Below, piece after piece: positions 16,240-35,635 of a stretch of 64,000 nucleotides of DNA. A program made the position numbers and the translations under genes. The first letter of the stretch is position 1. Every line of letters begins with the position of its first letter. The notes beneath the pieces were generated by a model that worked only from the letters and a program-made list of their open reading frames with translations, did not search any database and was not told the origin of the DNA. This DNA is from Rhizophagus irregularis (lineage: Eukaryota; Glomeromycota; Glomeromycetes; Glomerales; Glomeraceae), in NCBI RefSeq assembly GCF_026210795.1, contig NC_089444.1:3400501-3464500 (forward strand), read 5' to 3'.

Positions 16240-16990
16240 CGGAATTTTCATAAAAAATGCACCATTTGGCAGAAAATCAGAATATTTGACAAAATAAAGC
16301 AAAATTTGATTTTAATCGACAATGTTATAACAATGTTACGAAATGTTGTTACATGATATTACATTGGTGGCAAATGTGGAATTTTCATAAAAATGCTCCG
16401 TTTGTGAATATTTGACAAAAAAAAAGTAAAATTTGATTTTAATCGACAATGTTATAACAATGTTACGAAATGTTGTTACAATGATATTACATTGGTGGCA
16501 AATGTGGAATTTTCATAAAAAATGCACCATTTGGGAATATTTGACAAAAAAAAAGTAAAATTTGATTTTTAATTGACAATGTTATAACAATGTTACGAAA
16601 TGTTGTTACAATGATATTACATTGGTGGCAAATGTGGAATTTTCATAAAAAATGCACCATTTAGGAATATTTGACAAAAAAAAGTAAAATTTGATTTTTA
16701 ATTGACAATGTTATAACAATGTTACGAAATGTTGTTACAATGATATTACATTGGTGGCAAATGTGGAATTTTCATAAAAAATGCACCATTTGGGAATATT
16801 TGACAAAAAAAAAGCAAAATTTGATTTTAATTGACAATGTTATAACAATGTTATGAAATGTTGTTACAATGATATTACATTGGTGGCAAAATGCGGAATT
16901 TTCATAAAAATGCACCATTTGACAAAAAAAAAGCAAAATTTGATTTTAATTGACAATGTCGTGAAATGTTACGAAATGTTACATTTGAGG
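16240..16990. repeat. 129-bp subterminal tandem array
   Basis: Five to six copies of a unit of about 129 bp carrying GACAATGTTATAACAATGTT and GATATTACATTGGTGGCAAA. ATTTTCATAAAAA recurs at 16381, 16510, 16639 and 16768. This is the right-hand counterpart of the 52-bp array but with unrelated unit sequence. Confidence 0.9.
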
Positions 16991-20959: not shown

Positions 20960-21570
20960 TTATTTTATCGTAACTTTGCCAATATTAATCGTAGAGAGAT
21001 GATCTCACCGCCATTCGATTCGTCTTAATGAGACGGTTCTAATGGTATAAAATATGTCGAAATCCAATCACTAGATTAATTTCCAAATTAAAAAAATATT
21101 AATGGTTTTTGTGTAATAACTCTGCCAATATTGATCCTAGAAAGACGCTCTTACTACCATTCGATTCGTCTTGATGAGACGGTTCTAATGGTATAAGATA
21201 CATCAAAATCCAATCACTAGATCAATTTCTGAAATTAAAAAATATTAAATGGTTTTTAAGTAATAACTCCGTCAATATTGATCACAGAGAGATGTGCTTA
21301 CCACCATTCGATTCGTCTCGATGAGGCGATTCCAACGAGCTATAAATCATCATTTTACAATCACTAGGTACTGAGATATCTAGCAAAATGTTAAATGGTG
21401 CAGTAAACGTAAATCAAGAAATATTATAATGCCAATGTTTAACATTTTGTTGAATAACTCGTCAGCCAGTGATCAGAAAAGGATAAAACTACCACCATTC
21501 AATTCGTCTCAGTGAGACGATTCTAACAAGCTATGATACATCTTTGTACGATTATTAGATGCCAAGTTAT
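20960..21570. repeat. 147-bp internal repeats of the Tigger-like element
   Basis: Four diverged copies, with GCCAATATTGATC-like starts at about 20978, 21124, 21271 and 21460. Each carries CCATTCGATTCGTCT..ATGAGACG..TTCTAA. A related single copy occurs outside the element at 37630-37730. Confidence 0.8.
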
Positions 21571-22977: not shown

Positions 22978-23022
22978 AACATTCAACTGGTGTGACTATA
23001 TAGTAGAATGTGACTATAACGG

Positions 23023-24328
23023 TGTCACCCCCGTCTGCCACCCGGCGGTAAACAAAGTTCCCAGCTTCTGTTATATGTGCTCCACGAAACATTAACATTC
23101 TTGCTTGGTTTAGTTTTATTACTACTTAACTTTCAAATTGCGATAGCTCTCGCCACAATATTTCATCCATTATCTTCTTTCAAAATACGATAGTTCTCTT
23201 TACAAAAGTTTATATTTTATTTATTTCATAATTCTTATTATGACATTAAATTCACCATGAATTTGTCCAATTAAAATTAATTAAGCGAACATTACAGTAA
23301 AGTTTAGGGCGAACCTATTACCTTTAAAATAACATTACGCTTTACTAACAATTAATTAAACAAAATTACTTTTTCATCATAAGAAAATAGTAACAAAAAC
23401 AATCGAAACAATTAATTTTCATATAAAGGGTATTTTATTTATTCTTCATAAAATTCACAATTAACTAATTTACTTAAAGTTTTACATCGTATCTGACGAC
23501 TGTCGAATTCACCTCCCATTCCGCTCCTATTTAAACCAACTTTCTTATTCTTTCTTTTCTTACTTCTTATTTCTTTCTAATATTTTATATGTTATCTTTT
23601 ATGCGCTATCTTATATGCTATTTTATATGTTATCTTTTCTAATATGTTATACTATTTTAGTATGCTATCTTTTCTTTAAAATAATCTTTCGCATATTATG
23701 TTGTAAAGATATAATCCATCTTTTGTGGCTGTGCTATCTTTTCTTTAAAATAAAATAATCTTTCAAATATTATATCGTAAAGATCCATCTTTTGTGGCTG
23801 TGCATTCTTTTCTTTAAAATAAAATAATCTTTCAAATATTGTATCGCAAAGATCCATCTTTTGTGGCTGTGCTATCTTTTCTTTAAAATAAAATAATCTT
23901 TCAAATATTGTATCGCAAAGATCCATCTTTTGTGGCTGTGCTATCTTTTCTACTGCGTCTCGTCAGCTATTCTTCTACTGCGGCTGCAGTTCATCAATAT
24001 TTTACATGTTCCTATTTTTTTGTTCCTTTAATTCGCTATCCTTCCTTTTTATATGATTTATCATTTGTGGCTTATGATTACTCCTCCTAATTGTTCCTAT
24101 TGTTTAACTTGATAAACTGGTTGCTAAGCCACATCGATCAACTCCCCACTTGATCTATTGGTTCTCCGTTAATCATTTAATAAACATTACATCATGTAGA
24201 TCATTCCTTCTCCTAAAAGTTTATCCTTTCCGGTTAATTTTATCCCATCATGTGACTTTCTATCGTTTGATCTTTTATTCCATATTATTCCTCCATATTA
24301 TGCGATTACTCCAGTATCTATGGCTACA
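23023..24328 (-). repeat. 3' LTR of copy 2
   Basis: 1,306 bp, TG..CA. Line-by-line comparison with 34299-35604 showed no difference over the stretches checked. It contains a 69-bp tandem array (about 23700-23945) that gives a spurious open frame. Confidence 0.93.
23700..23945. repeat. 69-bp tandem repeat in the LTR
   Basis: About 3.5 copies of a unit with GATCCATCTTTTGTGGCTGT and TTCTTTAAAATAAAATAATC, repeated identically in the other LTR at about 34976-35221. The unit length being a multiple of three explains the open frames here. Confidence 0.9.
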
Positions 24329-24345
24329 GTTTGCCCCCCACCTAA
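24329..24345 (-). other. Polypurine tract of copy 2
   Basis: On the minus strand AGGTGGGGGGCAAAC lies directly before the 3' LTR and 15-30 nt after the integrase stop, the expected place for plus-strand priming. Confidence 0.75.
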
Positions 24346-24358
24346 AATTTGAGTCCCA

Positions 24359-25546
24359 TCAAATTCGAACTATTACTTCAAAATTTGTCCTATCAATATA
24401 TTCTTTCAGTAATTCACCATTTACTGGTGTTTTCAATATCTTCCCTTCCATAGTTTTAATTCTGTATGATCCTTTAGAAATTATCTCATGTACATAATAA
24501 GGTCCTTTCCATTTTTCTTCTAACTTTCCAGACCATTGTTTTTCTTTTGCTGCGTCATAATATAGTACTTTATCTCCGATTTGTAATTTCTGCTTTATTC
24601 TATTCTTTTTATCATGGTACGATTTTTGTTTTTCCTGAGATTTCCTGACATTTTCTTTAGCTTGATTCCTAATGTTTGGTAATCCTTCGATCAACCCATT
24701 AACTCTCTCTGCCATGGTAATTTCCTTATCTTCTAAATCTAATAATGTCTTCATTTGTCTCCCATATATTAAATATCCTGGTTCCATTTTCGTTGAATCA
24801 TTCCTTTTAGTTCGATACGCGAACAATACTCCTGGTACTTTCAAATCCCAATCTTCGATATTACTTAGCTTTGCTAATGATTCACATAATGTCTTATTAA
24901 ATCTTTCAATTAACCCATTAGTTTTTGGATGATAAGGCGTTGAAAAGTTATGTTTTATCTGAAATTCCTCCATTAATGATTTCACTAATTTATTATTGAA
25001 ATGACTCCCTCTATCACTCAATATCTTCTTTGGACATCCATGCCTACATATTATATCTTCATAAATAAATCTTGCAATTTCCTTAGCATCTGCTGTTTCC
25101 AATGCCTTTGCTTCAGGCCATTTTGTAAAATAATCCATCGCTGTAACTATATATCTATTATTTCTCTTTGTTACTGGTAATGGTCCCACTACATCAATCC
25201 CAATTTGATAAAATGGTTCTATAACTTTGATTACATTCAGTTCATGTTTTCCTATTGGTTTTCCTCTTCTCTGACAATTATTACATGATTTGACATAAGC
25301 TTCTACATCTTTTCTCATCCCTTTCCAATAATACCCATCCTTGATCCTATTATACGTTGCATTTATTCCAAAGTGTCCTGATAATTCATGATCATGAGCT
25401 ATGTACATTAACCCTTCAAATTCGTATTTTCTTATCACTCTTAGTCTTTTCTCATCTTTTATTTTGTAAATTAATCCTCCTATAATTTCATATCCCCGTT
25501 CGTCATTGATATTCCTCGCTATCCTATTATATTCTTCCTCTTCCAT
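24359..25546 (-). CDS. Integrase (copy 2)
   Basis: 395 residues. The N-terminal zinc site is H53-x4-H58 with C88-x2-C91. The catalytic core has D118 (GIDVVGPLP), D178 (LSDRGSHF) and E214 (NGLIERFN), with exactly 35 residues between the second Asp and the Glu (DD35E). A C-terminal WKGPYYV motif is the GPY/F module of Ty3/Gypsy integrases; I see no chromodomain. It inserts the cDNA copy into chromosomal DNA. It lies in a different frame from the RT ORF, 140 bp away, beyond a small repeat array and ORF, so it needs recoding, splicing or separate initiation. Intact. Confidence 0.92.
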   Translation of the reverse strand: MEEEEYNRIARNINDERGYEIIGGLIYKIKDEKRLRVIRKYEFEGLMYIAHDHELSGHFGINATYNRIKDGYYWKGMRKDVEAYVKSCNNCQRRGKPIGKHELNVIKVIEPFYQIGIDVVGPLPVTKRNNRYIVTAMDYFTKWPEAKALETADAKEIARFIYEDIICRHGCPKKILSDRGSHFNNKLVKSLMEEFQIKHNFSTPYHPKTNGLIERFNKTLCESLAKLSNIEDWDLKVPGVLFAYRTKRNDSTKMEPGYLIYGRQMKTLLDLEDKEITMAERVNGLIEGLPNIRNQAKENVRKSQEKQKSYHDKKNRIKQKLQIGDKVLYYDAAKEKQWSGKLEEKWKGPYYVHEIISKGSYRIKTMEGKILKTPVNGELLKEYIDRTNFEVIVRI

Positions 25547-25559
25547 GTCTATGTTGTAA

Positions 25560-25670
25560 TTCTAAAAGCTAAAGTGTTGTAAAAGGTTGAAATGTTATAA
25601 AGGGTTGAAGTGTTGTAAAAATTAAGGTGTTGTAAAAATTAAGGTGTTGTAAAAATAAAGCGTCGTGATA
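25560..25670. repeat. Short GTTGTAAAA-type tandem repeat between integrase and small ORF
   Basis: Five to six degenerate copies of AAG(T/G)GTTGTAAAAATT-like units of 18-20 bp on the + strand. Non-coding spacer. Confidence 0.7.
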
Positions 25671-25686
25671 ACTGTTCCATATATTT

Positions 25687-26028
25687 TTAATTTTTATCTC
25701 TCGATTTATTTTTGATCCTTGGTATTTCTATCCTTCTTATATATTTTTCATTCCCTATAATCAATTTAGATCGTACCCATCCTAATCCTTTTTCTATTGG
25801 TCTTTCTTCTATTATCATATTGTTTCCATCTTCCATAATTAATTTTACCTTTTTCTCTTTTAGTCTTATTATAATGTGTACATCTACTAGTATGAAGTCT
25901 TCTTCTTCTTCAATCCTTAAATGGATAATTGTTTTGTTCTCTTCTTCTTTTATAGTCACTTTCCATATCTTATCGACCTTTACTCGATAGGTAAGAAACC
26001 AATTCATATAACAATCTCCTAATACCAT
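25687..26028 (-). CDS. Small ORF between RT-kinase and integrase, unknown function
   Basis: 113 residues, rich in Ile, Glu and Lys, with alternating hydrophobic residues suggesting beta strands (IHLRIEEEEDFILVDVHIII). It is in the same frame as the RT-RNase H-kinase ORF and follows its TAA after only a few codons, so readthrough or a recent point mutation could make it the C-terminal extension of that protein. No family recognised. Confidence 0.6.
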   Translation of the reverse strand: MVLGDCYMNWFLTYRVKVDKIWKVTIKEEENKTIIHLRIEEEEDFILVDVHIIIRLKEKKVKLIMEDGNNMIIEERPIEKGLGWVRSKLIIGNEKYIRRIEIPRIKNKSRDKN

Positions 26029-26043
26029 TTTGGAAATATAATT

Positions 26044-28377
26044 TTAAGCTCTTTGGTGTTTTTCTATCTCCTTATATACTTTTCTCCAACTACTATCGTC
26101 ATTCCTAACTTCAATTTGACTGTATCTTTTGGTATCTTTGTATACATCCTGGTTTTCTTTAAACATTTTAACCATGTCCAAATATTCATTTTTCTTTAAT
26201 GTTGGGTATGACGATTTCTCCATTTTCTTCGTTTCTCTTCCAATATAATTTTCCCAACATACATCGCCATCTTTTTCCAAAAATATCACTATTGATTCAT
26301 CTATTGTTCCTTTTAATCTGAATATTTCTTTTTCCATCTCATGGTTCCCATGTGGAGTAATTAATCCTCTGTTGAAACTTTTCGTCTTCTGATAATAATA
26401 TTCGCAATATGGCGATTTGTCCAGAATTATTATATCCGTATTTTCATCATATTCTAACATTCTTCTGTTTATTTGTTCTACTACTTCCTTTCTAAATTTC
26501 CATTCTGTTTCTAATTTTGATTCGTGAAATTCACCTTTGTCTTTTCTTCTCCTTTTGAATGTATTAAATCTTACTTTTAATCCTTGCTTTTCCCACTCTT
26601 TAATCAAATTTTGTACTATACTTGTTTTTCCTAATCCATCCACTCCGTCGATTATAATAACTTGTGGCTTATTTTCTCTTCCCAATTTCTTTAATAATTC
26701 TTTTTCTGTCCTTTCCTCCAAATTCAAAAGTATGGCTTCTTTATCGGTAAAATATTTTTCATCATCCCATCTCCCTTTAAATCTTTTAGCATTATACCAT
26801 TTATTCCTAAATTTGATATATCTCAATTTCCCCTTATTACTTTCTATTTTTGTTATTTCTTGATTCTCGTTCCTTTCTGTTTCTTTTTCTTTAAATCTCA
26901 GTCTTGATAATCCATCTGCATTTTTAATTTTCTTTCCACTTCTATGTACTATTTTAAAATCAAATTGTTGTAATTTCATTACCCATCTTGCTCTCCTTCC
27001 CGTTTGTTCCTTTCCATCTGTTAATCCTTTTAATGCTGCGTGATCTGTTATCACTATAAATTTCCTTCCTACTAAATATTTCTGAAAATGTTGTATTCCC
27101 CAAAATACCGCTAAGCATTCCAATTCTGTTGGTGGATAATTCTTCTCTGCTCCAACTGTACTCCTACTTGCGTAAGCTATTACAACCTCTTTATTTTCTT
27201 CATTCATTTGAGCTAACACTGCTCCTAATCCTATCTTAGATCCATCAGTTATCAATATAAATTCTCTGCTGAAATCCGGATATACTAAAATTGGATTTTC
27301 TGTCAATTTTGTCCTTAATACGTCAAATGCTTCTTGTTGTCCTTCTTTCCATTCAAACTTTTCATTCTTTCTTGTTAAGTTAAGCAAAGGTTTTGCTATC
27401 TTCGAAAAACCTTTTATAAATCTCCTATAATATGAACATAATCCTAAAAATGATCTTACTTCCGTGACAGTTTTCGGCCTCCTCATATTTTCTATTTTCT
27501 CAACTTTCTCTTTATCTGGTCGCAATCCATCTCTTCCTACTATATGCCCTAAGAAATTTATATTTCTCAATCCAAACTGACATTTCTTCAATTTCACAAT
27601 CATATTATTCTCTCTCAATTTACTCAATACTTTATCTACATGCTCTATATGTTTCTCAAAATCTTCTGAATAAATCATTATATCATCTAAATACACTGTA
27701 ACAAATTCTCCTATATATTCTTTTAATATTTTATCCATTAATCTCTGAAATGTTCCTGGTGCATTCTTCAATCCAAATGGCATAACATTGTATTCATATA
27801 ATCCTTGTGAACAAATGAACGCTGTTTTCTCTTTATCTTCTTCTGCCATTTCTACTTGATGATATCCTGCTGCTAAGTCCAAACTTGTGAACCAACTTCC
27901 CTTTCTAAATTTTTCTAACAATTCGTCTATCCGGGGTAAAGGATATTCATCTGACTTTGTCACATTATTCAGCTTTCTATAATCTATACAAAATCTATAA
28001 TTTCCAGTTTTCTTTCCTGCTAACGTTACTGGAGATGCCCAATTACTCCATGATTCTCTTATCTTCCCCATCTTTAACAATTGTTCAATTTCTTTCTTTA
28101 TAAACTTTCCTTTTTCATCAGTTTCTTTATATCTCTTTTGTGCTATTGGTCCTTGATTTTCTTCAATTATTATTTCATGTTTAACTGTATTTATCCTTCC
28201 CAGTTTCTCTTCGTCATATTCGAATATATCTTCATATTCCCTTATCAATTTTTTAAATGCTATTCTCTCCTCATCGCTCATTTCTCCCAGATGTGTTTTC
28301 TTTTCAAATTTTTCTTCTTTGCTCTCATTTAGCATCTTTACCGTCTCTCCTTCATTCAGAAAGCCAAGACCATTCAT
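26044..28377 (-). CDS. Reverse transcriptase-RNase H with fused deoxynucleoside/thymidylate-kinase-like domain
   Basis: 777 residues. RT occupies about residues 90-300 (FTSLDLAAGYHQV, MPFGLKNAP and the active-site YLDD at 229-232). A connection region follows, then RNase H at about 370-500 (ITDGSKIGLGAVLA; TELECLAV; ITDHAALKGL). Unusually, residues 570-770 form a P-loop kinase-like domain. Its Walker A is GVDGLGKTS (578-586) after four hydrophobic residues, then come DKSPYCEYYY (from 653; compare the DR-type motif of thymidylate and deoxynucleoside kinases) and a basic LID-like segment YIGRETKKMEKS (about 725-737). The start overlaps the protease stop (ATGA). The kinase position, between RNase H and integrase, is where some lentiviruses carry dUTPase. 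All key residues I checked are intact. Confidence 0.9.
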   Translation of the reverse strand: MNGLGFLNEGETVKMLNESKEEKFEKKTHLGEMSDEERIAFKKLIREYEDIFEYDEEKLGRINTVKHEIIIEENQGPIAQKRYKETDEKGKFIKKEIEQLLKMGKIRESWSNWASPVTLAGKKTGNYRFCIDYRKLNNVTKSDEYPLPRIDELLEKFRKGSWFTSLDLAAGYHQVEMAEEDKEKTAFICSQGLYEYNVMPFGLKNAPGTFQRLMDKILKEYIGEFVTVYLDDIMIYSEDFEKHIEHVDKVLSKLRENNMIVKLKKCQFGLRNINFLGHIVGRDGLRPDKEKVEKIENMRRPKTVTEVRSFLGLCSYYRRFIKGFSKIAKPLLNLTRKNEKFEWKEGQQEAFDVLRTKLTENPILVYPDFSREFILITDGSKIGLGAVLAQMNEENKEVVIAYASRSTVGAEKNYPPTELECLAVFWGIQHFQKYLVGRKFIVITDHAALKGLTDGKEQTGRRARWVMKLQQFDFKIVHRSGKKIKNADGLSRLRFKEKETERNENQEITKIESNKGKLRYIKFRNKWYNAKRFKGRWDDEKYFTDKEAILLNLEERTEKELLKKLGRENKPQVIIIDGVDGLGKTSIVQNLIKEWEKQGLKVRFNTFKRRRKDKGEFHESKLETEWKFRKEVVEQINRRMLEYDENTDIIILDKSPYCEYYYQKTKSFNRGLITPHGNHEMEKEIFRLKGTIDESIVIFLEKDGDVCWENYIGRETKKMEKSSYPTLKKNEYLDMVKMFKENQDVYKDTKRYSQIEVRNDDSSWRKVYKEIEKHQRA

Positions 28378-28895
28378 TTTTCCTCATCCCTCTTTTCTCT
28401 ATCAGTTTTTACAATCGATAACAACTCTTCTTTTTCCATCTCCTCATATTCATCTTCACTCTCTGACTCTTCACTAGAATTGCCATCTATATCATCTATA
28501 TTCTTTGGATCTCCATTAAATTCACCCCTATTCCCTGACTCCTCGAATTCAACATTTTTCTTTCCTCTAAAATCAATTGGTATTTCATATATTCCATTAT
28601 CCCATTCTATTGTTAACAGACCTTCTTTCATATTTATTATCCCATATCTTAATAAATCAGTTCCTAATATTAAATCTTTTCTTCTCGAGTCGATTACTTC
28701 GAACTCCAAAGGTATTTCTAAATTTTCGTCAATTTCTATTCTAATTTCCACTCTTCCTAATGAAGCTATGTTATTTCCATCTGCTATTGTTAATACGACA
28801 TTACTTTCCTTCGTTATTGGTATATTTAATTCTTTTCTCAGTTCATTCGTTATTACTGAAGGTCCTGCTCCTGTATCAACTAATGCTCTAATCAT
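28374..28895 (-). CDS. Aspartic protease (copy 2)
   Basis: The active site LVDTGAGPSVI has Asp at residue 7 of this ATG, and the second motif is LILGTDLL. It would cleave the Gag-Pol precursor. The ATG is probably not the real start: the frame is open upstream to the Gag stop at 28980 and is the same frame as Gag, with CTA CAC TCG GGG GAA immediately after the TGA. The protein is therefore most likely made by stop-codon readthrough. It has a C-terminal Asp/Glu-rich tail and ends in ATGA, overlapping the RT start by 4 nt. Confidence 0.88.
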   Translation of the reverse strand: MIRALVDTGAGPSVITNELRKELNIPITKESNVVLTIADGNNIASLGRVEIRIEIDENLEIPLEFEVIDSRRKDLILGTDLLRYGIINMKEGLLTIEWDNGIYEIPIDFRGKKNVEFEESGNRGEFNGDPKNIDDIDGNSSEESESEDEYEEMEKEELLSIVKTDREKRDEEK

Positions 28896-28976
28896 TTTTC
28901 CTTCAATTATTATATTACATCTTGTTGCTTGTGATTTTTCTTCTTTCTGATTAATATTCTTTAATTCCCCCGAGTG

Positions 28977-28982
28977 TAGTCA
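28977..28982 (-). promoter_or_regulatory. Putative UGA-CUA readthrough site between gag and pro
   Basis: On the minus strand Gag ends ..TAT TGA CTA CAC TCG GG and the protease frame continues with no frame change. UGA followed by CUA is a well-known leaky context in several RNA viruses and cellular genes. The 13-nt block TGACTACACTCGG is conserved in copy 1 (1946-1934), although coding around it has diverged. Confidence 0.65.
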
Positions 28983-31900
28983 ATATCTCAAACCATTTAA
29001 TAATTTCTTCCTTACTTCTGGTCTTTCATTCATCATTTGTCCCCAATTAATTGGTACGCTTGAATTTACAAATTGCTCAAATGGATCAAAATCTCCAACA
29101 TTTGGTATATTTCGATTTAACTTCACTTTCTCGTTTGTACATTCTCTAGCAAAATGTCCTTGTTGTCCACAATTGTGACACCTATTATTATTCTTTCTAG
29201 TTTCATATCCTTTCTGTAATTGTTCTTTTGTAAAACCCCTCTTATTATTCTCCTGTGCTTTTTGCTGTTGTCCTTGCCATTGTGCATTTCTTCTTCTATC
29301 TCTTTCATCGTTCATAACCTTGTCTTTATTTCTTTCACTCTTTCTAGGTGGTACTGGGAACATATCATATCTCTCCTCATCTTCATAGTTATTCACTTCG
29401 TATCCATCGAATCCATTATTATAGTTATCATATCCACCACCCTCATTATATCCATCATATTCATCATTATATTCCATATTATACACATTATATCCTTCAC
29501 CATAATATTCTTCATCAAGGTAATTAACTTGATTATTTTGGCTATATGACCCTTTATTATTTCCTCCATATGATCTTCTTTGACCTTCCCTACAAACTCT
29601 AGAAGTATGTCCTTTTCTTCCACATGTATAGCAAGTCATTCTATCCCAGTTCATATTATTTCTTTGGACATTATTATTTCCGATCGGTCTCCTATCATTC
29701 CTATTCCTTTGCATTACATACGCTTCATTTCTTTGCATTACATGTGCTTCCAACCTTTTTATTCCATTAATTAACTCATCCCATTCATCACTTTTAACTT
29801 CTTTATTTTGTAATTCTTTCGCAATTGGATTCATTCCTTTATACTTATTTGTCTCTTCTTTCAAAATTTCTTCCATGTTTTTCTCTTGTCCTACTCGTTT
29901 CATATCCAACCCTGTTGTTTTCATTAACAATTCATCTTTCGCTTCCTCTTCTCTTTTTGCTTCGTTAACTGCATCATTCAGATTCGTCGGATTACTTCTC
30001 CTAACATGATAACCTAGCATAGCATCTAACCCTTGAATAAAATAATTCACTTGATATAAATCATCTAACGCATGACCTCTAGTTGCAACTCTTAATATTG
30101 ACCTAAATCTTCTAATATATTCCTCAACACTTTCATTTGTTCCCTGTCTAATTCTTGTTAATTCTAACATCTTTCTTCTTTGAATATCATTCCTAGTAAA
30201 TCTGTCGATTAATCTTCTTTTTAAATTCCTGTCCTCATTATGGTCACACCAATTCACTAAATTAGCTGCTACCCTTTCTTTTTCCTCATTATACCATTGT
30301 AATGCAATTCCTCTTAAACAAGTTATAGCTATGTTTGCCTTATTTTGTCTACATACACCTCCTCCAACATTTCCTTCTGGTCGTCCACTTACTGTAAATG
30401 CTATCTCAAATTGTCTAATCCAATCATTAATATCTTCATCCTCTTTTCCACTAAAAGTTGGCATACCTACTATTCCCCCCATTCCTGCAGTCTGAATCCT
30501 ATCCGCCAAAGTCTGTCCTGCTCCTAACGCATTATCTAATGCATTTGGTGCCAATCCCATAGCATTCTCCATTATTCTTCTTATTTGTGCTTCATTTGCC
30601 ATATTTACTATATTCTCTTGAAATAATTCTTGTAAATTGTAATCAGATATTTCACTTTCTGTGTCAGAATTTTTAAAATTTAATGAACTATTCGAATCTG
30701 AATTTTGATTCAGACCAAAACCTCCTGTATTTATAACATTTTCGATTTCATTTTCAGATTCTTCTTCTTCAAAATCTTCATCACTTCCGTCCCATATTTC
30801 ATCCGGACTTAATATTTCTCCAATCTTTTCTGAATTATCCGTATTGTCTTCTTCTGATTCTTCATTATCACTCTTTTCACCACTTTCTTCACTATCCATT
30901 ACTCCTGCTTGTTCTTTCAACAACTTATCTAACTTTTTCTTCAATTCTTTTTCCGACTCATTCTTATTTTCTTGAAAGATTTCAATGAATTCTTTATCTA
31001 AAATTTCTCCATCTGTATATCCCATACTAGTTAATCTTAACAATTCTTCTTCAGTTATCATTGTTCCAATATCTTCAAAAATCTTTTGCAATCTTTTTAC
31101 CCGATCATCAATTTCATCGATATTTTCTTCTTCACAATCTTTGCATACCATTCCTCTTACTCTAGACATATCATCCATCCATCCTAATCTAAACATATCA
31201 TTCATCCATCTTATTTCGCATCTTTCGCACCAAGTTGTATTCTGGTTTAACCACTTATGAATTTCTTTTCTTAATTCTTTATCTTCCAAATCTATCATTT
31301 CCATATATTCTTCCACAAATTCTTTAGTTACTATTATTCGATTATTTACCCCAAAACTCTTCATTCTTTGAATTTCTGACACATCTATTTCATATCCCAA
31401 TTTTTCTAAGTTATTTCTTAATTCTATTAGCTCATCTTGTTCATTCTTCTGCGCTTCTTTAACACATTCCCCGCATTCGCTATCCGCTTCGTCCATTTCG
31501 AACCTTCTATTACCACATTTTTCACATCTTATTGTTTCTTTTTCTAACCATTCTTTTATCCTCAATTCTTTTTCCCTTTCATCCAATTCCTCTATCTCTT
31601 GAATTTTATCCATAAATATTCTCGTTACCAATATATCCATTTCTATCATCAACTTTATTCCTATTTTCCAAATGTACCTCAGTTGATCTTCATCCATAAC
31701 ATTTGACCTTCTTCTTAATTCACTAAATTTCCATGATTTATCTCCTATTATTATCTCTAATTCTTCCTCGGAATCATTTTCCAATTCGTAACTTGCTGGA
31801 CTATCCTCACTTTCTGAATCTTCTGGTTCTTTTGTAAATCCCCTAGTATCTATAAATATTCTTATTATCTTTCGCATCATATTCTTGTGATATTCGTGAA

Positions 31901-32570
31901 CATTTTCTATATGTATGTTCTCATATTCTATTTTGGACATTAGTTCCTTTACTTTCTCCTCATTCATAGCTATTCCTTCTTCTTCATATAGTAACTCCCT
32001 AAACGTCTCTATTGCTCCTGTCTTTACTCGTAATGGTCCAATTTCTTTTGATGTGATTCTATACCATTGCCAAAATTTCTCAAACCTTCTTTCAACATCC
32101 CAATCTTCCAAAATATATTTGTGTTCTATTAATTCAGGATTTCCAATTAATCTATCAAATACTTCATTCCCCAGATTTCTTTCAATACAGTCCCTTACAA
32201 TTACTAATATAATTGTTCGTAATCCCCTTTCTTTCATTTTTGGTTGTATTCTATATCTTATTGATTCCGTTATTCTATCCATTATGTCTCTACATTTCCC
32301 TTTATGTATTGTATCTTCTCTTTCTGAATTATTCATACTTAACAAATCCAATACTCCTCTAATTGTTACATCGTTATATATTATTATTGTATCTTCGAAC
32401 TTAAATAATGCATCCCAAAATTTCTTGAATACCATTGGTTCATTTCCTATCGGATGACATAATTCACAATTTAAACATTCATCTAATTCTCCCGTTCTTA
32501 ACTCATGTTCTTCTTTATGTGTCCTATATTCACTTTCCCATTGATGGTACCATTCCATCGTATACTCCAA
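28980..32570 (-). CDS. Large Gag protein with N-terminal zinc-ribbon extension and two CCHC knuckles (copy 2)
   Basis: 1,196 residues, much longer than usual Ty3/Gypsy Gag proteins. The first 640 residues are an extension with repeated CxxC pairs (CLNCELC; CEKC..CGEC; CERC..CKDC) and acidic linkers. The conventional gag core follows (DINDWIRQFEIAF; ALQWYNEEKE; RRKMLELTRIRQG; VEEYIRRFRSILR). Two zinc knuckles lie near the C-terminus, CYTCGRKGHTSRVC (from about 980) and CHNCGQQGHFAREC (from about 1131), separated by a Tyr/Asn/Gly-rich segment. It should form the virus-like particle and bind the RNA. The copy 1 homologue has the same extension, so it is a family trait, not a chance fusion. Confidence 0.9.
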   Translation of the reverse strand: MEYTMEWYHQWESEYRTHKEEHELRTGELDECLNCELCHPIGNEPMVFKKFWDALFKFEDTIIIYNDVTIRGVLDLLSMNNSEREDTIHKGKCRDIMDRITESIRYRIQPKMKERGLRTIILVIVRDCIERNLGNEVFDRLIGNPELIEHKYILEDWDVERRFEKFWQWYRITSKEIGPLRVKTGAIETFRELLYEEEGIAMNEEKVKELMSKIEYENIHIENVHEYHKNMMRKIIRIFIDTRGFTKEPEDSESEDSPASYELENDSEEELEIIIGDKSWKFSELRRRSNVMDEDQLRYIWKIGIKLMIEMDILVTRIFMDKIQEIEELDEREKELRIKEWLEKETIRCEKCGNRRFEMDEADSECGECVKEAQKNEQDELIELRNNLEKLGYEIDVSEIQRMKSFGVNNRIIVTKEFVEEYMEMIDLEDKELRKEIHKWLNQNTTWCERCEIRWMNDMFRLGWMDDMSRVRGMVCKDCEEENIDEIDDRVKRLQKIFEDIGTMITEEELLRLTSMGYTDGEILDKEFIEIFQENKNESEKELKKKLDKLLKEQAGVMDSEESGEKSDNEESEEDNTDNSEKIGEILSPDEIWDGSDEDFEEEESENEIENVINTGGFGLNQNSDSNSSLNFKNSDTESEISDYNLQELFQENIVNMANEAQIRRIMENAMGLAPNALDNALGAGQTLADRIQTAGMGGIVGMPTFSGKEDEDINDWIRQFEIAFTVSGRPEGNVGGGVCRQNKANIAITCLRGIALQWYNEEKERVAANLVNWCDHNEDRNLKRRLIDRFTRNDIQRRKMLELTRIRQGTNESVEEYIRRFRSILRVATRGHALDDLYQVNYFIQGLDAMLGYHVRRSNPTNLNDAVNEAKREEEAKDELLMKTTGLDMKRVGQEKNMEEILKEETNKYKGMNPIAKELQNKEVKSDEWDELINGIKRLEAHVMQRNEAYVMQRNRNDRRPIGNNNVQRNNMNWDRMTCYTCGRKGHTSRVCREGQRRSYGGNNKGSYSQNNQVNYLDEEYYGEGYNVYNMEYNDEYDGYNEGGGYDNYNNGFDGYEVNNYEDEERYDMFPVPPRKSERNKDKVMNDERDRRRNAQWQGQQQKAQENNKRGFTKEQLQKGYETRKNNNRCHNCGQQGHFARECTNEKVKLNRNIPNVGDFDPFEQFVNSSVPINWGQMMNERPEVRKKLLNGLRY

Positions 32571-34298
32571 TTAAATTATTATAAATATTCATCCAGAATT
32601 CAAATTGAAATTCCGCTCTCTTATATATCATTTTTATCGCTTCTATTTTAATCTTCTAACCATCCTCTACTATATTGTCCTTTCCTATTACCTATATTGA
32701 ATGTATAATCTTTCTTCCATTATGAATATTCATTTAACAACTTATTTTTTTTTAAAATCTTTTACTTATTCATAATATTCTTATATTAATCTTTCAATCT
32801 TTAAATCCTCTTTTTTTGATTCTCACAAGTTTCTTCTGCTATTCTTATCTTTCATAATTTCATGTATATATTTTACTGCGCCATTAATTCAAAAATTATT
32901 CTAAGTCCACAATCTCCTCAGACTGCGGAGGTTTTTATTGCGCATTCTAAAAATTCCAAAAATTTTCTAAGTTTTTACTGCGCCTCAAAATTTTCTTTTA
33001 TCATCAAAATTTGTAATTTTCGCATTTCACGAACTTCAAAATTCTCATAACTTCTAAAGTTTGTGAATTTTTAGTTCTTTTTCATTATATATGTAATCTT
33101 TACATCTATATATTCAATATTACGCAAAATATCTTCTTTGTTTAATCTTGTACTAATTCTTATTATCACCATTATGTCGACACACAACATATTATACTTT
33201 ATGCGATACACGCATTTACACTTATGCGACACACGCATTTACACTTATGCGACACACGCATTTATACTTATTTAACGATGTTTCTTCTTATTTATTATCT
33301 TTTACAATTTAATAACCTATACTCGGCTTGCCTTTACCTTCACAATGAAGTATAGTAGTTTCGAGGTTTGTTATTCACATTTTATCATTTGACCAGCAAA
33401 TATTCTTAAATTTCGCATTATTCCATAACGTTCATCTTCTTTTCGTGAGTTCAATTGCGCATTTCCCTAAATGCTTTCAGTTTTATCTGAAGAAGTTATA
33501 CTCACGATGGTTTCTCTTTTTGCCTTGTGAATTCAATTACGCATTTTCAAAATGCTTTCAGTAGGGAGATGTTCCACTCACGTCTGAGTCCAATTATTCC
33601 AATTCCCATCTGAAGAAGTTATATTCACAGCCGGTGTTTTTGTAATAGGTTCTCACGTAACCCTTGTGTTTTAAATAGGTTCCCACGCAACCCTTGTGTT
33701 TTGGTAATAGGTTCCCACGTAACCCTTGAGTTTATAGCTTACTCGTCAACTTTTCGTTATAACATTGTATCCCCAGGAACTTCTGGCATCTGCAAAATAC
33801 AATGGTGCCCCTCCCAGAATACCACATCTTACGAGGGCTTCCTTAATTTCTTGGTTTTACAATTATTAGCGCGAAAACTTTAAAGACGACAACTTTTGTG
33901 ACTTACTACAATACTTCTCCGGATATTCTTGTAACAAATCTATTATTTTGAAACGAGTTCATTATATTCCATCATATCACCGCATCCTTCTTTTTATAAT
34001 TCCTAAGGTAGGTGTACAATATCGCTATTTTGCCCGTTCCCATTTTAAAGTTTTTCAGGTACTTACAACCTTTTTCCCCAATATTATATTTTAATTCTAA
34101 CACCTCTTTTTCTGAGTTCAGATTCTTCGGAATACCATGTCGGTACCATGATCGGAATGATCCTTCCCTTCGCGAGTGATCAATTCACTTAGTTGTTGAC
34201 CGTTTCCTTCTTAATACTGCATAGGTACTTGACTATATGAAGATAGTCAAAATGTCGACGCAAAGTCGACATTTCCTTTCTCGGAGCATGCACCAAAT
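32571..34298 (-). other. 5' leader of copy 2
   Basis: 1.7 kb without a gene. It contains a CCTCAGACTGCGGAGG hairpin (about 32920), 23-bp repeats of CGACACACGCATTTACACTT (33190-33265), the AATAACCTATACT..GAAGTATAGTAG block shared with copy 1 (about 33307-33365), and three copies of AATAGGTTCCCACG(C/T)AACCC (33650-33730). Dimerisation or packaging signals are likely in such a region but cannot be pinned down. Confidence 0.6.
34286..34295 (-). other. Primer binding site, copy 2
   Basis: Minus-strand TGGTGCATGC lies 3 nt inside the 5' LTR, identical in sequence and spacing to copy 1. It is complementary to a tRNA 3' end GCATGCACCA. Confidence 0.7.
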
Positions 34299-35604
34299 TG
34301 TCACCCCCGTCTGCCACCCGGCGGTAAACAAAGTTCCCAGCTTCTGTTATATGTGCTCCACGAAACATTAACATTCTTGCTTGGTTTAGTTTTATTACTA
34401 CTTAACTTTCAAATTGCGATAGCTCTCGCCACAATATTTCATCCATTATCTTCTTTCAAAATACGATAGTTCTCTTTACAAAAGTTTATATTTTATTTAT
34501 TTCATAATTCTTATTATGACATTAAATTCACCATGAATTTGTCCAATTAAAATTAATTAAGCGAACATTACAGTAAAGTTTAGGGCGAACCTATTACCTT
34601 TAAAATAACATTACGCTTTACTAACAATTAATTAAACAAAATTACTTTTTCATCATAAGAAAATAGTAACAAAAACAATCGAAACAATTAATTTTCATAT
34701 AAAGGGTATTTTATTTATTCTTCATAAAATTCACAATTAACTAATTTACTTAAAGTTTTACATCGTATCTGACGACTGTCGAATTCACCTCCCATTCCGC
34801 TCCTATTTAAACCAACTTTCTTATTCTTTCTTTTCTTACTTCTTATTTCTTTCTAATATTTTATATGTTATCTTTTATGCGCTATCTTATATGCTATTTT
34901 ATATGTTATCTTTTCTAATATGTTATACTATTTTAGTATGCTATCTTTTCTTTAAAATAATCTTTCGCATATTATGTTGTAAAGATATAATCCATCTTTT
35001 GTGGCTGTGCTATCTTTTCTTTAAAATAAAATAATCTTTCAAATATTATATCGTAAAGATCCATCTTTTGTGGCTGTGCATTCTTTTCTTTAAAATAAAA
35101 TAATCTTTCAAATATTGTATCGCAAAGATCCATCTTTTGTGGCTGTGCTATCTTTTCTTTAAAATAAAATAATCTTTCAAATATTGTATCGCAAAGATCC
35201 ATCTTTTGTGGCTGTGCTATCTTTTCTACTGCGTCTCGTCAGCTATTCTTCTACTGCGGCTGCAGTTCATCAATATTTTACATGTTCCTATTTTTTTGTT
35301 CCTTTAATTCGCTATCCTTCCTTTTTATATGATTTATCATTTGTGGCTTATGATTACTCCTCCTAATTGTTCCTATTGTTTAACTTGATAAACTGGTTGC
35401 TAAGCCACATCGATCAACTCCCCACTTGATCTATTGGTTCTCCGTTAATCATTTAATAAACATTACATCATGTAGATCATTCCTTCTCCTAAAAGTTTAT
35501 CCTTTCCGGTTAATTTTATCCCATCATGTGACTTTCTATCGTTTGATCTTTTATTCCATATTATTCCTCCATATTATGCGATTACTCCAGTATCTATGGC
35601 TACA
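34299..35604 (-). repeat. 5' LTR of copy 2
   Basis: 1,306 bp, the same length as and apparently identical to 23023-24328 (offset 11,276). It should contain the element promoter and includes the 69-bp array. Confidence 0.93.
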
Positions 35605-35635
35605 ACGGGAGTGACTATAGAGGGAGTTGACTGTA

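Follow-up and report, generated by a model that had tools for sequence, protein, structure and literature searches.

Excerpts of the lentiviral literature describe dUTPase as a nucleotide-pool enzyme of non-primate lentiviruses, encoded in pol between RNase H and integrase, which protects dTTP use and matters in non-dividing cells (PMC4531489). The excerpted accounts of other retroelements also report dUTPase, in fungal Gypsy elements of Postia, Phanerochaete and Tuber (PMC2864245), in the bdelloid Juno, Vesta and TelKA elements (PMC5408684) and in giant planarian elements (PMC6431247); its position in them varies, being the N- or C-terminus of Pol or protease-reverse transcriptase (PR-RT), and in those excerpts it is not described between RNase H and integrase. 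Here we analyse a 64,000-nt stretch of the Rhizophagus irregularis genome (contig NC_089444.1; hereafter the window), in which a minus-strand long terminal repeat (LTR) retrotransposon of Ty3/Gypsy layout (23023-35604; the window copy, family A) carries in its Pol region, between RNase H and integrase, a domain that resembles thymidylate kinases (TMPKs) and deoxynucleoside kinases (dNKs).

The position is that of the lentiviral dUTPase, but the lentiviral enzyme is a pyrophosphatase, whereas here we deal with a P-loop kinase-like domain, known from sequence and a structural model, in a fungal LTR retrotransposon. With the fungal, bdelloid and planarian dUTPase elements the window copy shares a captured nucleotide-metabolism domain, although of another enzyme family; the dUTPase fold is unrelated to the P-loop kinase fold. 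LTR retrotransposons that have captured a nucleotide-metabolism-like domain are a known kind of element, and we found no description of the kinase class in the open-licence PMC papers found; the word "thymidylate" is absent from the main texts of PMC11075540 and PMC8647823. We lean, without great confidence, towards the view that a clade of Glomeraceae elements with Ty3/Gypsy layout captured a P-loop kinase of the TMPK/dNK superfamily, that this kinase became a standard part of Pol, and that it is active, most likely on thymidine monophosphate (dTMP) or deoxynucleoside monophosphates (dNMPs). Documented below are the domain with its predicted fold, its almost invariable occurrence in the clade, the purifying selection on it, the range of its fusion partners and its exchange from family to family.

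The kinase-like domain in Pol and across the genome

The open reading frame (ORF) in question spans 26044..28377 on the minus strand and encodes 777 residues, with an RT domain at residues 122-280 (27538..28014; RVT_1, E 2.5e-41) and an RNase H domain at residues 343-472 (26962..27351; RT_RNaseH_2, E 6.2e-34; RT_RNaseH, E 3e-36). The RNase H match stops at residue 472, and residues 557-777 (26047..26709, minus strand) make up a separate domain, recognised by an AlphaFold2 model and by fold and profile searches. Its motifs, all on the minus strand, are a Walker A P-loop, GVDGLGKT (26623..26646); the stretch FRKEVVEQINRR; DKSPYCEYYYQ (26389..26421), which stands at the place of the TMPK DR(Y/H)..S..AYQ; and a basic segment RETKK...SY (26206..26238), which may act as a lid. 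A preliminary description, made from the letters of the window alone, had pointed to the P-loop, to DKSPYCEYYY and to a basic lid-like segment in this ORF, and all three are located there. The integrase is a separate ORF downstream (25546..24359), in keeping with the position between RNase H and integrase that had been proposed.

The predicted structure is confident (mean pLDDT 90.5, pTM 0.87) and has the P-loop kinase fold, and its nearest structures bear out the nucleotide-kinase-like identity suggested earlier. Foldseek returned 252 chains of the Protein Data Bank (PDB) at E <= 0.001, and among the best 50 there are 37 thymidylate or deoxynucleoside kinases, the others being mainly adenylate kinases and other P-loop enzymes; in a VIA structural comparison the best 50 rows are all TMPK, dCK, dGK, dAK or AbmG. 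Matches in BFVD are to phage and large-virus TMPK/dNK proteins, a likeness of fold only. The P-loop follows the TMPK pattern GxDGxGK[ST], and hhalign sets the E. coli Tmk P-loop on GVDGLGKT and its DRHDLSTQAYQ on DKSPYCEYYYQ (62% probability, 88 columns), with the same register for the P-loop and DRS...YQ of a phage TMPK (92% probability, 95 columns). Compared with E. coli Tmk, fungal Cdc8 and phage TMPK, the domain has the same fold and P-loop, with the D......YQ motif in register, but it sits within a retroelement Pol and shows only 12-15% identity to TMPKs in the structural alignments listed. To the dNKs (dCK, dGK and Giardia dAK) its fold is as close as to the TMPKs, but its match to the dNK profile is weaker and the acceptor-side stretch has no evident catalytic Glu.

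The domain is far from private to the window copy. A kinase search of the host genome (146.7 Mb, 32 contigs) gave 175 candidates, 150 of them scored, and at least 150 matches, a few copies being represented by two pieces; an RT search gave 302 candidates, likewise with 150 scored and at least 150 matches. The two lists were paired by contig, strand and order within 8 kb, so that a pair denotes proximity and not a confirmed single element. On this basis a kinase lies downstream of 120 of the 121 listed RT matches whose identity is at least 63% (22/22 at >=95%, 12/12 at 80-94%, 80/81 at 69-79% and 6/6 at 63-68%), and of none of the 29 at 60-62%. The lone miss, C13:673869, may reflect a nested insertion, a kinase being present on that strand 16 kb downstream, and the 26 kinase matches with no listed RT upstream include fragments and copies that lost RT. 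The divergent query P0080, which has at least 145 kinase matches in the genome, gave none near the 29 kinase-less RTs when these were checked by eye; two kinase-less loci that we inspected (L047, L048) have RNase H and integrase, with no kinase profile match between them. Among the 30 best kinase loci, 28 are free of stops within the match, 29 keep the P-loop and all 30 keep DKSPY.

Outside this assembly, identity to the window's kinase region reaches 100% among proteins of R. irregularis DAOM 197198 (P0002). Relatives were sought three times among 5.8 billion proteins, one search listing 120 of 128, and 158 proteins were collected in all; their named sources are R. irregularis, R. clarus, R. 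diaphanus and Glomus cerebriforme, and many others are metagenomic. Eighty of the 158 cover the domain, a count set by length limits, and under lax patterns DKSPY is found in 76 of these and the P-loop in 74. The names that NCBI gives to such ORFs ("enzymatic polyprotein", "phosphodiesterase-like", "retroviral-like aspartic protease 1") hide the domain. The reading that a single recent copy privately reads through into flanking or host DNA, for which the recency of the window copy speaks and nothing more, can be dismissed in view of the at least 150 matches, the several families in the genome and the relatives in four named species. The original observation is real, and stronger than one copy could show.

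The kinase is under purifying selection. Ratios of nonsynonymous to synonymous substitution (dN/dS, estimated by NG86) between families are 0.088 for A-B (dS 0.69) and 0.14-0.19 for the other five pairs, whose dS of 1.3-2.4 is near saturation; the corresponding values are 0.09-0.11 for RT (five pairs, A-D not among them), 0.11-0.30 for RNase H and 0.08-0.32 for integrase (six pairs each). Close pairs gave 0.092 for two C copies, 0.055 for two B copies and 0.418 for two D copies, the last at a dS of only 0.019. Within family A the kinase ratio is 0.205 (171 pairs from the 19 of 21 loci that share one length); for RT-RNase H it is 0.085 (136 pairs from 17 copies, pairs below 90% identity excluded). 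Selection had earlier been argued from the intact motifs of a recent copy; the claim stands on these ratios, but that argument is a weak one, and better evidence is the conservation of the domain across families whose protein sequences diverge by about 20-40% and whose gene orders also differ.

Activity and acceptor of the domain

That the domain catalyses a reaction, and that dTMP or several dNMPs are its acceptor, is the most likely reading of its sequence and predicted fold. Several points weigh against it: (i) by fold TMPK and dNK tie, the model suiting both sides of the superfamily. (ii) The window copy matches Pfam Thymidylate_kin (PF02223) at E 1.1e-4 and 22.4 bits, under the 27-bit gathering cut-off; the TMPK DR(Y/F/H) motif keeps its D and its spacing but has K for R and S as third residue; and the REP motif, which follows strand 2 in TMPKs of the E. 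coli type, is absent, FKRRR standing there (hhalign places FTREPGG of E. coli Tmk opposite it). It is because of these three departures that we call the domain TMPK/dNK-like. (iii) Other P-loop families match nearly as many members as Thymidylate_kin does in our kinase alignment (the window copy and 31 relatives picked from the 105 known then) at E <= 0.01, namely AAA_14 (26 of 32), NB-ARC (25), NPHP3_N (24) and KTI12 (23), and sequence searches of the PDB put FtsY on top, over the N-terminal P-loop part; we take the FtsY match as an effect of the P-loop, since FtsY is missing from the best 50 rows of the fold searches. (iv) Between families dS is mostly above 1 and near saturation, and within family A constraint on the kinase is weaker than that on RT-RNase H. 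(v) The host itself has two candidate loci for thymidylate kinase, so that the need for another is not obvious.

The strongest competitor, in our view fairly unlikely, is a deoxynucleoside kinase, which would turn salvaged deoxynucleosides into dNMPs rather than dNMPs into diphosphates, and with which the tie in fold is compatible. The profiles point the other way: at E <= 0.01 Thymidylate_kin matches 27 of the 32 members (best E 7.4e-8), whereas dNK (PF01712) matches seven (best 1.6e-4), the window copy not among them. The PHROG thymidylate kinase family, a marker of the fold family, matches 31 members, the window copy clearly so at E 1.7e-15, and several relatives, P0027 and P0052 among them, carry PF02223 as a precomputed annotation. 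The P-loop also speaks against a dNK, IDGVDGxGKT being TMPK-like. The acceptor-side stretch of dNKs carries a catalytic Glu, and FKRRR, which occupies that place here, has no acidic residue; nucleoside kinases need an acidic residue near this position, whereas nucleotide kinases hold the phosphate there with basic residues. As a motif reading, the basic FKRRR would favour a monophosphate acceptor.

Basic stretches would also suit a polynucleotide or tRNA kinase-like P-loop enzyme that works on nucleic-acid ends and aids integration or primer handling. Besides the conserved FKRRR and RETKK, this reading can draw on the KTI12 matches, weak as they are (best E 8.3e-7), on a weak match of the metagenome protein P0119 to a phage polynucleotide kinase family (E 0.0016) and on the fusion to integrase in family D. 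We hold it to be distinctly unlikely: the best 50 VIA rows are without exception nucleoside or nucleotide kinases, and in the Pfam table of the window copy Thymidylate_kin alone spans most of the domain (20-187), the seven other families ending by 104.

Very unlikely, finally, is a domain that has lost catalysis and serves Pol as a structural spacer or binding module. The missing REP, the lysine in place of the DR-x arginine and the higher dN/dS of the family A kinase agree with such a loss; the persistence of the P-loop and DKSPY in nearly all full-length relatives does not, nor does the fact that the domain has been kept across differing fusion contexts and, as set out in the next section, replaced by another kinase instead of being dropped.

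Under the preferred reading, the captured enzyme would be an active dTMP or dNMP kinase, held between RNase H and integrase; being fused to Pol products, it would enter the virus-like particle or stay close to RT. There it would raise dTDP, and hence dTTP, for the reverse transcription of AT-rich DNA (the window has a G+C content of 28.7%, that is, 71% A+T). In this pathway dUMP comes from dUTPase, dTMP from thymidylate synthase and dTDP from TMPK, and the kinase step would lie further along the dTTP supply line than the dUTPase step; retroviral dUTPase is the closest analogue. The earlier interpretation is supported in the kinase-like identity, the fusion to RT-RNase H, the presence in other copies and the selection; its further suggestion, an element that would help to supply its own deoxynucleoside triphosphates (dNTPs), is an inference.

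Fusion partners, exchange between families and origin

We compared the arrangement of the domain at 12 loci, in the window copy and in related proteins; its fusion partner is RNase H, integrase or the two together. RT-RNase H and kinase share one frame in families B (L031, L032) and C (L033, L034, L035, L042), as in the window copy; family D (L036, L037, L038) has an RT-RNase H ORF and a separate 600-codon kinase-integrase ORF; and in P0028, an R. clarus protein, RNase H, kinase and integrase are joined. The fusion to RT-RNase H noted in the preliminary description holds for the window copy, B and C, but it is one of several arrangements. Since kinase-integrase proteins fall in four places on the kinase tree, the fusion partners have probably changed more than once. 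Two loci, L039 and L040, are without PR and RT: gag-derived sequence runs in frame with the RNase H tail and the kinase, and an integrase ORF follows. Their gag/RNase H junctions differ, their LTRs are 98.6% and 99.92% identical, respectively, and they look non-autonomous and recent. Kinase matches at L027-L029, in frames of 590 or 526 codons, score like these two.

Different parts of the element tell different histories. Between A and C (L033), identity is 83% in RT, 82% in integrase and 62% in the kinase; between A and B (L031) it is 71%, 59% and 88%. In 40-column windows A is nearer to C as far as the linker that precedes the kinase (82% in the window at residue 537, in which just 9 residues of B can be aligned), and in windows starting at 557-716 it is nearer to B (82-97%) than to C (58-77%). 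At the end of RNase H (windows 441-481), B and C are 85-92% identical, nearer to each other than either is to A, so that exchange happened more than once. The trees were built from 20 chosen rows for RT-RNase H (relatives from the searches and one divergent RT of the same genome, with no named reference elements) and from 46 chosen rows for the kinase. On the first, A groups with L041, P0015 and P0016 (100/100) and the relation of A to C is not settled; on the second, A groups with B (100/98) and P0015 and P0016 are placed elsewhere. L041, an interrupted copy, combines an A-like RT-RNase H (85 and 89%) with a kinase that shares 63% identity with that of A. Of the kinase-less families E and F, with the outgroup chosen for the RT-RNase H tree, F falls outside and E sits on a long branch without firm placement. 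The mosaic trees and the shifts in identity indicate that A's kinase was most likely replaced by another kinase, not lost; the kinase of the window element appears to have been swapped in from a sister family.

As to where the kinase came from, two metagenome proteins, P0119 and P0136, offer a lead. Their kinase halves are 44% and 37% identical to the window's, and they share with the element kinases a similar 25-residue stretch before the P-loop (11 of 12 shuffle tests at p < 0.05, with six hand-chosen targets against two references), but unlike the elements they carry a NUDIX domain, above the Pfam cut-off, N-terminal to the kinase. This hints at a relationship between NUDIX-kinase proteins and the element kinase, on a tree whose root was chosen on two long branches that the program flags as a possibly false join.

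Other donors found less backing. The NUDIX half of P0136 matched nothing in this genome, in a query made without a positive control, and a resident NUDIX-kinase gene was not retained as donor. A phage or large-virus origin was also set aside: pattern searches of IMG/VR with the kinase alignment, P0119 and P0136 gave no relative, by a method that detects close relatives only; tblastn against phages with the window domain gave three weak matches (E 0.3 to 1) and with P0136 none at E <= 0.1; and the viral matches are of fold only. The PHROG family is generic and no sign of phage origin, because E. coli Tmk matches it too (E 7.3e-38). A bacterial origin found no backing either, GTDB contigs searched once by pattern with P0136 having given no relative, again by a method that detects close relatives only. 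A host gene is disfavoured by a comparison of motifs rather than by a tree, the exons at one host thymidylate kinase locus reading FEGCDKAGKST and DRYAYSG, unlike the element motifs. Taken together, we put at about even the full scenario in which the element encodes its own dTMP/dNMP kinase in Pol, captured once in the ancestry of the Glomeraceae elements, perhaps from a NUDIX-kinase fusion, then traded between families and re-fused to RNase H or integrase.

Layout of the element and significance of the domain

The window copy has the structure of a Ty3/Gypsy LTR element: a pair of LTRs with TG..CA ends, a short target-site duplication and the coding order gag, PR, RT-RNase H, integrase. The 5' LTR (34299..35604, minus strand) and the 3' LTR (23023..24328, minus strand) are each 1306 bp and 100% identical, the latter holding 69-bp tandem repeats at 23645-24020; inspected by eye, the flanks show a 4-bp duplication, ACGG, at 23019..23022 on the left and 35605-35608 on the right. 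A putative primer-binding site, TGGTGCATGCTCCGAG, lies at 34280..34295 (minus strand); its 13-base complement occurs at 91 places in the genome, against 0 for the reversed control, and several of these lie near family A, B and D elements, which suggests a shared primer tRNA. A putative polypurine tract was found by eye at 24329..24343 (minus strand). Outside the element there are tandem repeats of about 129 bp (16389-16957) and about 146 bp (20960-21398).

On the minus strand the coding order is gag, aspartic protease, the RT-RNase H-kinase ORF, a 113-codon ORF and integrase. Gag (28980..32570; start codon provisional) has a Retrotrans_gag match and two CCHC zinc knuckles. It terminates at TGA followed by CTAC (within 28961-29000, element strand), and the protease (28374..28895; Asp_protease_2, E 4e-10) is open in the same frame. 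The same TGA-CTAC ends gag at eight of nine other loci checked (L031, L033-L038, L042), the frame of L032 terminating earlier, at TAG. UGA-CUA is a known leaky stop context, and because of this gag-protease may arise by readthrough. The protease stop overlaps the RT start as ATGA (28374-28377), which could permit stop-restart translation. Between kinase and integrase lies the 113-aa ORF (25687..26028); it was seen at all 21 family A loci examined, uninterrupted at 17, with a stop at three (L007, L008, L011) and split between frames at one (L019), and at the B and C loci L031-L035 the kinase-integrase gap is too short for it. The integrase (24359..25546) comprises an H2C2 zinc-binding domain and the rve core.

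These elements document an exchange of domains between retroelement families near one junction. If the preferred reading is true, they add to dUTPase a second class of nucleotide-supply enzyme in retroelements. If the enzyme is active, it shows that a late step in dNTP synthesis can hold back reverse-transcribing elements and that they can overcome this by bringing the enzyme along with Pol, which would extend the dUTPase precedent. In the Glomeraceae elements the idea could be put to the test in obligate symbionts; the dNTP pools in the spores and hyphae of these fungi, we conjecture, may be small.

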